Source: Artemia franciscana
Lineage: Eukaryota > Arthropoda > Branchiopoda > Anostraca > Artemiidae
Length of the DNA stretch: 64,000 nucleotides
Direction: 5' to 3'
Assembly: GCF_032884065.1 (NCBI RefSeq)
Contig: NC_088867.1
Span: 30,992,252-31,056,251, forward strand
The notes below the pieces were generated by a model. It was not told where the DNA came from. It saw only the letters and a list, made by a program, of their open reading frames with translations, and searched no databases. Below are positions 868-64,000 of this stretch, in pieces (position 1 is the first letter of the stretch; every line of letters begins with the position of its first letter). The translations under genes and the position numbers were made by a program.

Positions 868-1791
868 CCCAGCCCGTGTCAAAATTGCGTCATGGAACAT
901 GAACGGAGGAGTCCCCAACAAACTCGCCATAATTCAAAATATTCTGCAGACTGTGACATTATGTTTATACAAGAACATATGCTCTCTCCTCACAATATTT
1001 CTCTCCTAAAGTTCTCGCAAGAACTTACTTTTTACTTCGAGCCGGCAAAAGTTCGGTCTTTTGGACGCCCCTCCGGTGGCTTGGCAATTTTTTGCCACCC
1101 GTATATTGAAAGTAAGGTGTTGTTTACGCATGATCACTTCTTGGCTATATCTTCCGGCAGTATCGCATTCTTCAACGTGTATCTTCCTACAAATTACCAT
1201 GATGACAAATCGGAGCGAAAGTTTATGAACGCATCTCGTGAACTAGCGAAGTGCCCGAAGTCTGTGACCCAGAGAGATTTGCATTGCGTAGTCATGGGGG
1301 ACTTTAACTGCAACCTTCTTGACAGCAAGTGTGCCCGTAGTCAGCTTCTAAACGGCATCTTTGATGACAAACTTATCATCCTCCCAAAAGACAGTGATAA
1401 CTCCTTCGTTCATAATTCTGGGTCCGTTTCAAACATTGACCATACGGCCTGCTCTAAGAATATTAACGGAAGTGTAACTGTTCTAAAAGACGCTGTCTTC
1501 GCTGATCACTTACCCCTGCTAGCATCTCTAAGCATAAAACCAGCTCTGCGTCAACCCAAGAATGACAAGTGGAAAGTAGTAAGTGAATGGGATAAAATTA
1601 ATACAACTTTGTATCATCAGGTGCTGAACTCACTTTTTGTAAAGATACGAATCCCCTTCCATTTACTCCAAGTGAATTCGAATTTTGATCCCGCGGATGC
1701 AAGAGTACTCATCAATATATTTTGTGCCGAGATTACTCACTCGCTTCTCGTAGCTGAAAAAAAGCAGTTCCTACCAGAAAGGTTAAAATGA
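868..1791 (+). pseudogene. LINE APE-type endonuclease domain
   Basis: The start KIASWNMNGGVPNKLA lies in one frame near 880-940; the rest is in the frame running to 1791, so there is a frame shift in the first 70 codons. Visible APE landmarks are WNMNGG, QEHM (the metal-binding Glu position), GRPSGGLAIF, VVMGDFNCN and, near the end, ADHLPLLASL for the catalytic D-H pair. The protein would nick target DNA to prime reverse transcription. Confidence 0.85.
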
Positions 1792-1799
1792 AAACTGAA

Positions 1800-3410
1800 A
1801 TTCACAAATTCTCGCAAAATCCGGCCCTAGTTAAGTGTTGCAACGATGCTAAGTTTTAGTTTAGAATCTGGCAAGATTGTGATAGGCCCAAATCCGGTCC
1901 TGTTAACCGGTCCCTGTTAACTTTATGGACTAAACGAAAATTTGACAAGCAACTGAAAGCTCATCGTACCAAATTAAAAGAAGAGTACTCCTCTAGAATC
2001 GTAAGTGACCCAAAACTAATCTGGAAAGCCCGGTTGAGCAAACCGGTCACCGGAAAACCCCATGATTCGATTAGCGAAAAAGACTGGGAATCGTACTTTT
2101 CCAACGAAATCAGTGCCCCCGACCCAAATATGTCTAATCCCTTCGAAAACCGGCTAGCATCGGTATTATCCAGCCACTGTGTCCCTGATTTTGTCGTTAC
2201 TTACGGAAGCGTACATGAAGCTATTTTAAAGCTGAAGAAGAAACACTCCCGTGGTGTAGACGAACTGTGCGCGCTAAATCTGCTACACGGTACTACTATG
2301 CTTATTGAATATCTGACGCTGCTATTCCAGATTATTTTCACCACTGGTATAGTACCTGACTCTTTTTGTGTCGGTTTGCTCTCGCCCATCCTTAAAAAAG
2401 GGAAACCAACAGACCAATGCTCTTTGTACAGGCCAATCACTGTTGCTCCAGTGCTCTGTAAAGTTCTAGAGATCTTAGTCTCAAAAGAAATTCAATATTC
2501 GTGCCGAATGCCTGACCACCAGTTCGGTTTCCGACCGGGTCTGGGTTGTGCTCACGCTCTCTTTAGTCTTGCCGCTATTCTAGCAGATTCTCACGAATCT
2601 GGTGACCCTATAGTGATTGGTGCTTTTGATGTGAGTAGAGCGTTTGATTCGTCGATTCACACTCAGGCCCTTTTAGCCGCTTACCAGCAAGGTGTAAACC
2701 TCCGTGTCACTAGCGTACTGTACGATATGTATTGCCGTTTAAAAGCGCGTATAAAAATAGGTAACCGCATCACATCAGTGGTTGCTCCAGTAAAGAAAGG
2801 TGTCCGCCAGGATTCGGACGATCTATTAAATCTAAGTCGGTCTATTAGTGGTCTGCAATCGAATTTCTCGATCCTGTGTGATGAATACCGAAAAATCGGC
2901 CTGGCTTCCAATACTTCTAAATCTGTAGTTCTTTTTTTCAACGATAGTCCTTCTCAGCCTGAACACCTCCTACTGGGTAGCGAGTCAATTACCGTTTCAT
3001 CTCACGTCGTGTATCTGGGTTTACCCATAGGCTGTAACCTTAATGAAACTCGTCTACTGCTCGTCAAACACGTCGAGAAAAAACTCCGCACCGCGTATGG
3101 GTCTATCGTCGCCAGCAGACTCCTCTTATGCCGAAAGTATCTCGCGAATATGTATAACGCTGTCGCACTGCCGCATATTCTATATATCGCGCCATTTTGG
3201 AATTTATTAACTGACACCCAAAAACGCAAGCTCCGGTCCCTTTATTTTAGGTTCACGAAGTTCCTGCTGCGATGCCCCTTGTGGACGAGAAATACTTATA
3301 TGATTGATAAACACAGGATTGCAGACCCCAGTATCACGGTAAACCGGTTGATTTCTAATATCCAGGCAAAATGGAACCACCCCTGGTTTAAACATTTCTA
3401 CAGTTCTTGA
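1800..3410 (+). pseudogene. LINE reverse transcriptase with an internal in-frame deletion
   Basis: A 458-codon frame is open from 2034 to 3410; its in-frame upstream part starts near 1800. Landmarks: KKKHSRGVDEL, LLSPILKKGK, YRPITVAPVLCKVLE, HQFGFRPG, FDVSRAFDS and KKGVRQ. Straight after GVRQ (about 2811) the frame reads DSDDLLNLS. The sister copy has GIRQGGVSSP, about 35 more residues and YVDDVLNLS there. So roughly 110 bases spanning the GG(V)LSP motif and the first half of YxDD are gone without loss of frame. The enzyme would be inactive. Confidence 0.88.
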
Positions 3411-3852: not shown

Positions 3853-35487
<31,635 letters not shown>

Positions 35488-35674: not shown

Positions 35675-36337
<663 letters not shown>

Positions 36338-36433
36338 CTGTTTGTGGGTTATGTCTGTCTGTCTGTCTGTCTGTCCGCATATGACGTCTGAATTATTTCA
36401 TCATATACCAATTCAAAAACAAAAGTATACAAG

Positions 36434-36500
36434 CTGATGTAGCTGAGTTGCTAACGCGGTATGTTCCAGGTTCTAGGTTCGAGAGGTTCCAGGTTCAAAC
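36434..36500 (+). repeat. tRNA-derived segment inside Helitron (copy 2)
   Basis: TAGCTGAGTTGCTAACGC matches the A box and D arm pattern, and GGTTCAAACC lies at the B box position about 50 bases on, inside a T-arm-like CCAGG stem. An A-rich tract follows, as in SINEs. A second partial copy lies at 36897-36940. Confidence 0.55.
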
Positions 36501-36504
36501 CTTA

Positions 36505-37175
36505 CAAAAACTACAAAAAAAATAAAAAAGCTAAAAAAAAGTAAAAAAAAGGTAAAAAACTAAAACCTAAAAAAGAAAAAAACTAAAAACTAATAAAAAT
36601 AACTAAAAAAATGTAAAAACTACAAAACAAACCAAAAACTAAAAAAAAACTAAAAAAGGTAAAAAACTAAAAAAAAACTAAAAAAGAAAAAAAACTAAAA
36701 AAGGAAAAAACTGAAAAATAAAGGAGAAAAAGAAAACTAAAAAAATAAGAATAAAAATAAAAAACTAAAAAAAAGGGTAAAAACTACAAAAAAAACTAAA
36801 AAGAAAAAAGAAAAAAAAACTAAAAAAGCAAAAAAAAGGTAAAAACCAATAAAAAGGCACAGGGGGATATATAAATGACGACGGGGACACAGAGAAGGTC
36901 CGAGGTTCTAGGTCCGAGAGGTTCCAGGTTCGAATGTTGGCTTTAGCATTAATACAAAAGAAGAAAAAAAAAACTAAAAAGGAAAAAAAAACTAAAAAAA
37001 GGTAAAAAGAAAAAAAAAACTAATAAAAAACAAAAAAACTGAAAAAGAAAAAAAACTAAAAAAAGGGAAAAAACTGACAATTAAAGGAGAAAAAGAAAAC
37101 TAAAAAAATAAAAATAAAAAAAACTAAAAAAGGGAAAAACTACAAAAAAGAACTAAAAAGAAAAAAGAAAAAAAA
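36505..37175 (+). repeat. Low-complexity AAAAACT-type tract
   Basis: Long runs of A broken by single CT or G, with one interruption near 36855-36960 by GACGACGGGGACAC and tRNA-like sequence. The complementary tract lies at 32240-32500 in the minus Helitron. Confidence 0.9.
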
Positions 37176-37245
37176 GACGACCGGGACACTCAAAGAGAAA
37201 TTACAGACTGGGACACCGGGATACAAATGACGACTGGGACGTGTG

Positions 37246-37335
37246 TGTCGACTGATGTCATGTTTGTGTGTCGACTGATGTCATGTTTGTGTGTCGACTG
37301 ACGTCATGTTCGTGTGTTGACTGACGTCATGTTTG
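37246..37335 (+). repeat. 23-bp minisatellite with TGACGTCA-type octamers
   Basis: Four units of TGTGTGTCGACTGAYGTCATG. The octamers start at 37253, 37276, 37299 and 37322, exactly 23 bases apart; the first two read TGATGTCA and the last two TGACGTCA, the consensus cAMP-response/ATF site. Confidence 0.9.
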
Positions 37336-37646
37336 TCGACTATAAAAGACGACTGGGACACAACTACAACGGGGACGCCGGTGGGGGCACAGGGGGATAT
37401 ATAAATGACGATGGAGACACAGGGAATGTTTGATTAGCAATCACCATCAACAAAACTCAAGTGCAATCATTAGAATAATGAGGTATAGATCTGAATACGG
37501 ATTGTTGTTCCCATGGACAATTATATGTTGCATGTTCAAGAGTCGGTAAACCTGTAGTGGGACACAGGGACACAACTACAATGGCACGTAACTAATATGG
37601 CGCGTAACAACTTACGCTCGCGGGGGGGCTTATATATATATATATA

Positions 37647-38379
37647 TCTATATATATAAAAATAAGTTGTCTGTCTGTGTGTCTGTCTGTCAGGTGACGT
37701 CATGTTTCTGTGTCGACTGACGTCATGAAGTTAGTTGTCGTCATTTTTGCTATGAAGGTGACGTCATTAATGGTATTTAAGACATGCGTTCACGGAAAAA
37801 TGTTTAATTGTAAAATGACTGAAGAACCTACAATGGCAACAGCCGAGGAAGCTGCTCAAAGAGTATATGCCAAAAAACTTGCTGCTGATAGAGAAAGTAA
37901 GAAAAGAAAGCGTGCCGAGGAATCACAAGAACAGCAAGAAAACAGGCTTGCAGCTGATAGAGAAATTAAGAAAAGAAAGCGTGCCGAGGAATCACAAGAA
38001 CAGCAAGAAAACAGGCTTGCGGCTAAAGAACGCAAAACCGTGCAGTTAGATGAAAATCCACCTGGAAAGCGAGAGTCAAAACATATCAAAACTGAAAATG
38101 ATAGCGATGATGATTGGGTTTGGGATTTTGACTTGGATAAGGTCATCAATGCCTACCAGATTTAAGTTAAAAAACAAAGGCTCGGCGATATGTACTTCAT
38201 AGTGACGCTGAAAAATAAAGAAGAAAAAAAACTGAAAAAATGTAAAAAACTAAAAAAACTAAAAAGAAAAAACACTCAAAGATAAATTACAGACCGGGAC
38301 ACAAATGACGACCGACACAGAGGGAATATAAATGACGACCAGGAACCTCAAAGAAAAATTACAGACTGGGACACCCGGA
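37647..38379 (+). mobile_element. Helitron (family 2), plus copy cut by the assembly gap
   Basis: It starts TCTATATATATAAAAATAAG at 37647 inside a short TA tract, continues with GTCTGTCTGT and three TGACGTCA octamers (37695, 37718, 37759), then a small charged protein frame, an A-rich tract and GACGACCGGGACAC repeats. It runs into the N gap, so its 3' end is unknown. Confidence 0.78.
37815..38165 (+). CDS. Small charged Helitron protein with tandem repeat
   Basis: From the ATG at 37815 (MTEEPTMATAEEAAQRVYAK) the frame runs 116 codons to TAA; an open stretch reaches back to 37710. It holds two copies of a 23-residue unit of the type LAADREIKKRKRAEESQEQQ, very rich in Lys/Arg/Glu/Gln and likely coiled-coil, then KRESKHIKTENDSDDDWVWD and an acidic end. 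Similar charged repeats are seen at the N-terminus of arthropod Helitron Rep proteins (recollection, not searched). The remnant at 33000-33190 on the minus strand is homologous. Rep and helicase domains are absent, so if expressed it would be a short stand-alone peptide. Confidence 0.55.
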   Translation: MTEEPTMATAEEAAQRVYAKKLAADRESKKRKRAEESQEQQENRLAADREIKKRKRAEESQEQQENRLAAKERKTVQLDENPPGKRESKHIKTENDSDDDWVWDFDLDKVINAYQI

Positions 38380-38479
38380 NNNNNNNNNNNNNNNNNNNNN
38401 NNNNNNNNNNNNNNNNNNNNNNNNNNNNNNNNNNNNNNNNNNNNNNNNNNNNNNNNNNNNNNNNNNNNNNNNNNNNNNN
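38380..38479. other. Assembly gap of 100 N
   Basis: Exactly 100 N, the conventional size for a gap of unknown length. The left contig ends inside a Helitron and the right contig begins inside a LINE reverse transcriptase, so order and orientation across it rest on scaffolding evidence not visible here. Confidence 1.
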
Positions 38480-58791: not shown

Positions 58792-58954
58792 ATGAATCGG
58801 GCTTCAAGAAAGCCTAAGAGAAATAGACCAGGTCCTGAAGATACTACGAGCTACATGTATCCACCAGAACAAATGTATTCTATGCCTCATCAGGGTTTTG
58901 GTCAAGAACAGTACCCGGGTTTTGAACCAATGATCCACCCTGAATACTCACAAG
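58792..58954 (+). CDS. Yif1: Candidate Yif1 coding exon 1, out of order
   Basis: The ATG at 58792 opens MNRASRKPKRNRPGPEDT, then a Tyr/Met/Pro/Gln-rich stretch ending HPEYSQ, and reaches a donor, CAAG|GTATTT, at 58954/58955. The exon leaves in phase 1, exactly what the acceptor at 3853 needs, and the joined codon is Gly. The basic start followed by Pro/Gln/Tyr-rich sequence suits the cytosolic N-terminus of YIF1. All seven exons then total 1035 bases (345 codons including stop). It lies 23 kb downstream of the last Yif1 exon, beyond the 100-N gap. It may belong to this gene (contigs misordered), to a second tandem copy whose exon 2 lies past base 64000, or to another gene with a chance phase match. 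Confidence 0.7.
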
Positions 58955-62639: not shown

Positions 62640-64000
62640 TGGGGTTTCTCCCCTAACTAAACACTCTGACCAGGACGGCCGTAACCTCATATGGTGGGTG
62701 GAGCCCACCCCGGGGATCTTGGTACCTAGGTTTAACCTAATTCTAATCAGATTCCAGGCCTAGGGTCGGTTGGGCTAGCAACCCTCCACCTGAAATTTAA
62801 GTGCTACAAAAAGTGACAATATAGCCTTGGACCCGGATTCCCTTTTAAGATCTTGACCATTGCATGTCAATGGACATGCTGATGACATCAGAAAGACTGA
62901 CAGACTAAACCTTATGGACCAAAAGGGGCTGCAAATAGCCACCTGGAATGTCTTGACTCTGAATGCACCTGCATCAAAGAATCTACTCTCTGAAGAACTT
63001 TGCAAGAACAAAGTGTCAATTGCAGGTCTTACAGAAACACGTCTTACCGGAAGCAGAGAAGAGCAAATAGGTAACAGTGACTCATTGCTCTGGTTTGGAG
63101 GAAGCTCAAGAAGGAATGGTGTTGGCCTTGCACTAAATAGCCTTACAAGAAAGGCCTTACTTTTACACAAAGCTGCATCTGACAGATTAATGAAGGCCCA
63201 CTTTTGACACAAGCATGGCAAGATGACTGTCATCATATGCTATGCCCCGACCAATGATTTTGATGATGCAATTAAGGAGGATTTCTACTCTTCTTTGTCC
63301 AGATGCCTTGCAACAGTACCCCCCCCCCCCCCCCCATGTTATAACTGCTATCCTTGGCGACTTTAATGCGACAGTGCACAATGATATGGGTGTATGGCAT
63401 GGCACAGTTGGTCCTGTATCCCCCAACCCACTTAACGACAATGGGCTCTGCTTACTTGAACTGTGCCAATCTCATGACCTTTACATTGCAAACACCTACT
63501 TCCAACGCAAAACTATTCATCAGTACATGTGGTATAGTAGTGATGGTTGTACAAAGAAGATGATTGACTACGTCATTATTTCCAAACACTGGAGATCATT
63601 GGTGAAGAACTGCAGAACTTACATCAGCAGAGCTTGGAAACGCAGACCATAGGCTTATGTGCGCTGATCTTTGGCTTCGCCTCCATGCACAACAATTAGA
63701 AATTAAAGCCGTTGCTGCGGATATTGGGAAACTAAAGGAACCAGATACTCACCAGAAGTACAGTATCAAGATACCAAATCACTTCAAGGCCCTTGCCTCA
63801 CTTAATAGCAGCAAAGATCTCTGGAAGCATTTTAAATTGCAGACAAGCGAAGCAGCACAACTAGTGCTCAGCAAGAGGAGTTATCCAAAGAAATCATGGC
63901 TAACTAATGAAACACTGCAAGTCATAGATCAAAGGCGGAAGGCAAGACTTCTTGGGGACATGACCACATATCAAAGGCTCAATGGAGTGCAGAACAGACT
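62640..64000 (+). mobile_element. Second RTE-like LINE family, little decayed, runs off the edge
   Basis: A GC-richer 5' UTR (about 62640-62860, with GGTGGG-TGGAG-CCCACC stem) precedes the endonuclease. The sequence is more intact than the other LINEs here and continues past base 64000, so the RT is not visible. It differs from the copy A family in sequence and 5' UTR. Confidence 0.85.
62860..63720 (+). pseudogene. Endonuclease of the right-edge RTE-like LINE
   Basis: The frame 62860-63207 has GLQIATWNVLTLNAPASKNL, SIAGLTETRLTG and NGVGLALN, then a TGA inside KAHF-HKHGKMTVIICYAPTN. A run of 17 C (about 63318-63334) shifts the frame, after which VITAILGDFNATVHND and LYIANTYFQ follow to 63652. 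NADHRLMCADL near 63635-63665 is in another frame. Three breaks in all; APE motifs N-W-N-V, T-E-T-R, G-D-F-N and D-H-R-L are all present. Confidence 0.85.

Follow-up and report, generated by a model that had tools for sequence, protein, structure and literature searches.

Introduction

False duplicates that lie side by side, separated by a gap, are a known type of assembly error. In the account given in PMC9516828, an older assembly of the zebra finch contained most of ZBTB11 a second time, right beside the first.

According to its published description (Jo et al. 2024, PMC11492255), the assembly of Artemia franciscana totals 1,270,721,445 bp, spread over 6486 scaffolds and including 21 chromosomes. 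The material came from 14 adult females that were progeny of one maternal lineage, and the pipeline combined Peregrine, Purge Haplotigs, linked-read scaffolding from one female and RagTag against A. sinica. The authors of that description report 5.9% duplicated BUSCOs and two-copy k-mers, and acknowledge residual duplication. The assembly analysed here, with 1,270,528,402 bases in 6468 contigs, has figures that are close but not identical to these, and we are confident that it is the same one. It is much larger than the k-mer estimate of about 867 Mb given in PMC7955100, which also gives 930 Mb from flow cytometry and a k-mer heterozygosity of 0.655%. As described in PMC9753292, RagTag by default places 100-bp gaps between contigs; with gap inference, 100 bp is also used where the inferred gap is smaller than 1 bp. 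Contigs that overlap have an inferred gap below 1 bp, so that gap inference in RagTag would give 100 bp between them.

Here, we have analysed a window of A. franciscana DNA (the whole stretch of 64,000 nucleotides, C5:30992252-31056251) in which a sequence-only reading had placed coding exon 1 of Yif1 downstream of exons 2-7. The product of this gene is a membrane protein that acts in transport between ER and Golgi.

Results

The exon at 58792-58954 belongs to a second copy of Yif1

The segment at 58792-58954 on the forward strand is an ATG-led coding exon of 163 nt that ends one base into a codon at a GTATTT donor. That it is coding exon 1 of Yif1, in phase 1 and with a good donor, had been recognized in the sequence-only reading, and the arithmetic of that reading also holds: the exons at 3853-35487 together with an exon 1 of this kind form seven exons of 345 codons, stop included, and the exon starts 23.3 kb beyond the end of the stop codon at 35487, against the 23 kb that had been given. 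What has to be given up is the assignment of this exon to the exons at 3853-35487, because that gene owns an exon 1 at C5:30977297-30977459.

The latter was located by comparing 306 kb of C5 (C5:30900252-31206251) with itself by self-BLAST. Within these 306 kb, which were the reach of the DNA search with exon 1, the exon 1 region was found in one other place, C5:30977105-30977505, 98.75% identical and 15 kb upstream of the window. Two of the checks that the sequence-only reading had proposed, for another exon 1 upstream of base 1 and for exons 2-7 beyond base 64000, thus returned what they were looking for. The exons, with boundaries taken from splice sites and from the junctions of a retrocopy described below, are as follows (positions are those of the window, continued beyond its ends where necessary).

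C5:30977297-30977459 (window -14954 to -14792), forward strand: copy A, coding exon 1 (self-comparison, spliced reading)
3853-4043, forward strand: copy A, coding exon 2 (splice sites, retrocopy junctions)
9401-9529, forward strand: copy A, coding exon 3 (splice sites, retrocopy junctions)
19431-19567, forward strand: copy A, coding exon 4 (splice sites, retrocopy junctions)
24519-24674, forward strand: copy A, coding exon 5 (splice sites, retrocopy junctions)
29185-29278, forward strand: copy A, coding exon 6 (splice sites, retrocopy junctions)
35323-35487, forward strand: copy A, coding exon 7 with the stop codon (splice sites, retrocopy junctions)
58792-58954, forward strand: copy B, coding exon 1 (inside the window)
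72956-73146, 78522-78650 and 89099-89235, forward strand: copy B, exons 2, 3 and 4 (outside the window)
94169-94324, 98837-98930 and 106288-106452, forward strand: copy B, exons 5, 6 and 7 (outside the window)

The exon at 58792 is real and is spliced to its own exon 2 at 72956, past the end of the window. Since the window starts in intron 1 of copy A and ends in intron 1 of copy B, the exons appear in the order 2-3-4-5-6-7-1.

Copies A and B are each intact and encode 344 residues, with the exons in normal order and no stop or frame break. Their coding sequences differ at 6 of 1035 nucleotides, four of the differences being synonymous and two nonsynonymous (Q33H and Y36F, from A to B), which corresponds to a pS of 1.72% and a pN of 0.25%. 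The codons at which the two copies vary are 33, 36, 41, 85, 226 and 319. The spliced copy A protein (344 aa) matches positions 3-245 of the 245-position Pfam profile PF03878 (YIF1) with E=1e-77, and its 261.4 bits against a curated cut-off of 27.6 place it in the family as a full-length member. Nothing unusual was seen in the Artemia protein as compared with the family. Two further searches have no bearing on the order of the exons: the Yif1 protein had no match at E 0.001 among solved structures, and a scan of the window against Rfam gave no family at or above its gathering score.

Two introns of copy A carry open reading frames for the endonuclease and reverse transcriptase of LINE-like retrotransposons, at 892-3410 on the forward strand in intron 1 and at 15091-17067 on the reverse strand in intron 3.

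A whole-genome search with the YIF1 family listed 9 matches from 16 candidates scored. Among the matches listed, three core exon regions each occur twice on C5 (6 matches), in pairs 69.1-69.7 kb apart; the remaining ones are a retrocopy on C108 and, on C16, a YIF1-like fragment that contains stops and was matched twice. By this count, which rests on the best candidates of an exon-by-exon family search with exon 1 beyond its reach, and with the pairs on C5 read as two haplotypes, Yif1 is probably single copy apart from pseudogenes.

A retrocopy records the joining of the exons

The retrocopy at C108:396280-397448 (L001 1184-2352; locus C108:395097-398636) is an intronless copy of Yif1 that spans all six of the six exon junctions. 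Over 1170 columns of alignment with the spliced mRNA, it shows 93.9% identity with copy A and 93.8% with copy B. At its end stand AATAAA and then an A-rich tail, while the ATG of the start codon has been lost. Absence of introns, presence of all exon joins and an A-rich 3' tail are the hallmarks of processed pseudogenes, and by its sequence the C108 copy is a processed pseudogene of Yif1; this class is based on the intronless structure, the joins and the tail.

As a processed pseudogene spanning all joins, it serves as a fossil cDNA for the splicing of exon 1 to exon 2. With six of six junctions spanned, this join is supported beyond chance, and transcripts of Yif1 did join the two exons.

Both copies are complete on their own side of the scaffold gap

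All seven exons of copy A lie in one N-free stretch, from C5:30900252 (the first base examined) to 31030630, and all seven exons of copy B in the next gapless stretch, C5:31030731-31128230. This arrangement bears on the explanations that the sequence-only reading had put forward, namely wrong contig order, tandem duplication, and exons joined in trans or coming from a different gene. That reading held misordering or duplication to be most likely; the two collinear copies bear out duplication, and the completeness of each copy in a gapless sequence leaves misordering unsupported.

If the contigs around the gap were misordered, the exons at 3853-35487 would have their true exon 1 at 58792. The exon phases would fit, and the retrocopy shows such a join in mRNA. 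But copy A has its own exon 1 before the gap and copy B its own exons 2-7 after it, and after a swap of the contigs one exon 1 and one set of exons would be left over, so that we consider misordering exceedingly improbable. A downstream exon 1, whether trans-spliced or part of a scrambled gene, draws on nothing beyond the apparent order of exons within the window, whereas every exon has an ordinary cis gene; with each copy collinear and intact, neither such a device nor exons from a different gene are needed, and the chance of trans-splicing or scrambling is vanishingly small. Contig misordering and trans-splicing were rejected on the ground that each copy is complete and has its exons in collinear order. 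Biologically, Yif1 is an ordinary, cis-spliced gene of seven coding exons.

The start of copy B is flush with the scaffold gap

The self-comparison of C5 divides the locus into the following parts.

C5:30956799-31028012 (window part 1-35761), forward strand: copy A, whole (self-BLAST)
35762-38379: pre-gap tail of 2618 bases, not collinear with copy B (self-BLAST)
38380-38479: scaffold gap of 100 N (sequence)
38480-64000 in the window and on to C5:31098976 (window-equivalent 106725), forward strand: copy B (self-BLAST)

From its very first base, the stretch after the gap starts out as a ~98% copy of sequence lying from 35 kb upstream of the window onwards: that base, C5:31030731, aligns with C5:30956799, where copy A continues unbroken. 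At the other end, collinear homology stops at 31028012 in copy A and 31098976 in copy B. Over 8 chained blocks, the copies differ by 845 mismatches in 60726 aligned bases (1.39%) and by 157 indels. Two parts were left out by chaining, the initial 3.8 kb and a block of 1.6 kb (C5:30979034-30980627); the three pieces there had been 98.5%, 97.6% and 97.6% identical in the initial self-comparison, indels counted. Blocks found in one copy only include one of 4.7 kb in A and others of 1443, 324 and 173 bases in B. The ~4.7-kb block of copy A, C5:30980628-30985369, has an empty site in copy B at window 62277. It may be a mobile element whose insertion varies between the haplotypes, although a target-site duplication could not be clearly made out.

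Part of the pre-gap tail, which has (TA)n tracts, matches in inverted orientation and at 78-93% a region a few kb upstream, at about 31.9-33.2 kb in the window. It also carries, at 37710-38165 on the forward strand, an open reading frame of 151 aa with internal repeats rich in lysine, arginine and glutamate, which had no Pfam match at E 0.001.

Comparison of the two copies suggests that the window very probably spans a false, haplotypic duplication at the scaffold gap, where two haplotype contigs would have been joined in succession. Several features were counted in favour of this reading: copy B starts directly at the gap, the divergence resembles polymorphism with both proteins intact, each copy has its exons 1 to 7 in order, the three core exon regions occur in pairs on C5, a similar edge is seen at an unrelated place on C16, the assembly nearly matches in size and contig number a published one with residual duplication, and RagTag places gaps of 100 bp. 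Counted against it were the divergence of 1.39%, about twice the published k-mer heterozygosity (0.655%, PMC7955100), and the 2618 bases before the gap, which are not collinear with copy B, so that the overlap is not flush there. The excess divergence is tolerable, though not proof, because diverged haplotypes tend to escape collapse and several animals were used.

The alternative is a genuine, recent tandem duplication of ~70 kb that left two intact Yif1 genes, the assembly being interrupted where they meet. It would put two intact, collinear copies next to each other on a single chromosome scaffold, the succession of unique sequence, copy A, gap, copy B and unique sequence is equally expected from it if broken at the junction, and the divergence above the published mean heterozygosity speaks for it. 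However, the junction coincides with the 100-N gap to the base, and copy A is unbroken at the matching place. In copy A, a decayed stretch resembling reverse transcriptase (RVT_1, E=2.3e-6, 27.9 bits, just under the curated cut-off of 29.6) follows about 125 bases further on, so that the matching place is not an evident natural boundary. A second flush edge, inverted, is found on C16, and the assembly is far above the k-mer estimate, with duplication acknowledged by its authors in PMC11492255. Continuous sequence across the junction of the copies, which would mark a tandem duplication, is replaced here by the 100-N gap. Such a gap is compatible with a true tandem duplication, which we hold to be unlikely, but less so than misordering or trans-splicing. 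The tandem duplication named in the sequence-only reading thus describes the sequence, and the duplication is most likely a false, haplotypic one.

Flush duplicates at two of five gaps

On C16, a gap of 100 N occupies 25048203-25048302. The stretch that runs right up to it, ending at 25048202, is 99.55% identical to the reverse complement of 25058460-25063165, a segment starting about 10 kb past the gap. The left end of the flush copy lies at or beyond the first base examined (C16:25043500-25063499). This duplicate is inverted, unlike the arrangement on C5, and a true inverted repeat is possible there. The inverted duplicate contains the stop-bearing YIF1-like fragment, which shares 43% identity with Yif1 across 125 residues.

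Gaps were surveyed for matches of at least 95% and at least 300 bases within flanks of 5 kb (4.7 kb to the left of the C16 gap). A flush duplicate was present at two of the five gaps examined, those of Yif1 on C5 and of C16; this is a small, local sample, and the C16 gap was a non-random choice, made for its YIF1 matches on both flanks. Within the sequence compared, the gaps at C5:31128231, 31164010 and 31178493 showed no flush duplicate. To the right of the last of these gaps, the flank contains two short matches of 522 and 1052 bases, inverted and near-identical; they start at least 190 bases away from the gap and did not count as flush. That three of five gaps gave no flush duplicate, that the C16 duplicate is inverted and could be a true inverted repeat, and that Purge Haplotigs was run on the published assembly were all counted against a haplotypic origin of the Yif1 duplicate.

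Discussion

We argue that copies A and B of Yif1 would be alleles rather than paralogues. One contig would end with haplotype A of a ~70-kb stretch carrying the whole Yif1 gene, and the next would begin with haplotype B of the same stretch. The purging of haplotigs would have missed this ~70-kb overlap, and reference-guided scaffolding would then have set the contigs in succession with a 100-N gap, no merging taking place. Exon 1 of copy B would hence show up after exon 7 of copy A. The parts ascribed here to purging and to scaffolding are those that the published pipeline could have played.

The apparently scrambled Yif1 is most likely an ordinary artefact of assembly and not a real feature. 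It gives reason for caution, as a gene that looks scrambled in a chromosome-level scaffold is explained by an unpurged overlap at a 100-N gap. The example on C16 and the excess size of the assembly hint that such joins may be common in it. If they are, gene counts, 'tandem duplicates' and anomalies of exon order near 100-N gaps should be discounted here pending checks with reads.

False heterotype duplications as described in PMC9516828 are sorted there from true ones by read depth, linked-read discordance and heterozygous k-mers, and the present assignment is drawn from sequence comparison. In the form that they take in that account, of which ZBTB11 is an example, they have a gap between the copies, and the copies are near-identical and collinear with allele-like differences. 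The Yif1 locus of A. franciscana resembles them in each respect, with the 100-N gap lying between two near-identical, collinear copies whose differences are like those of alleles.
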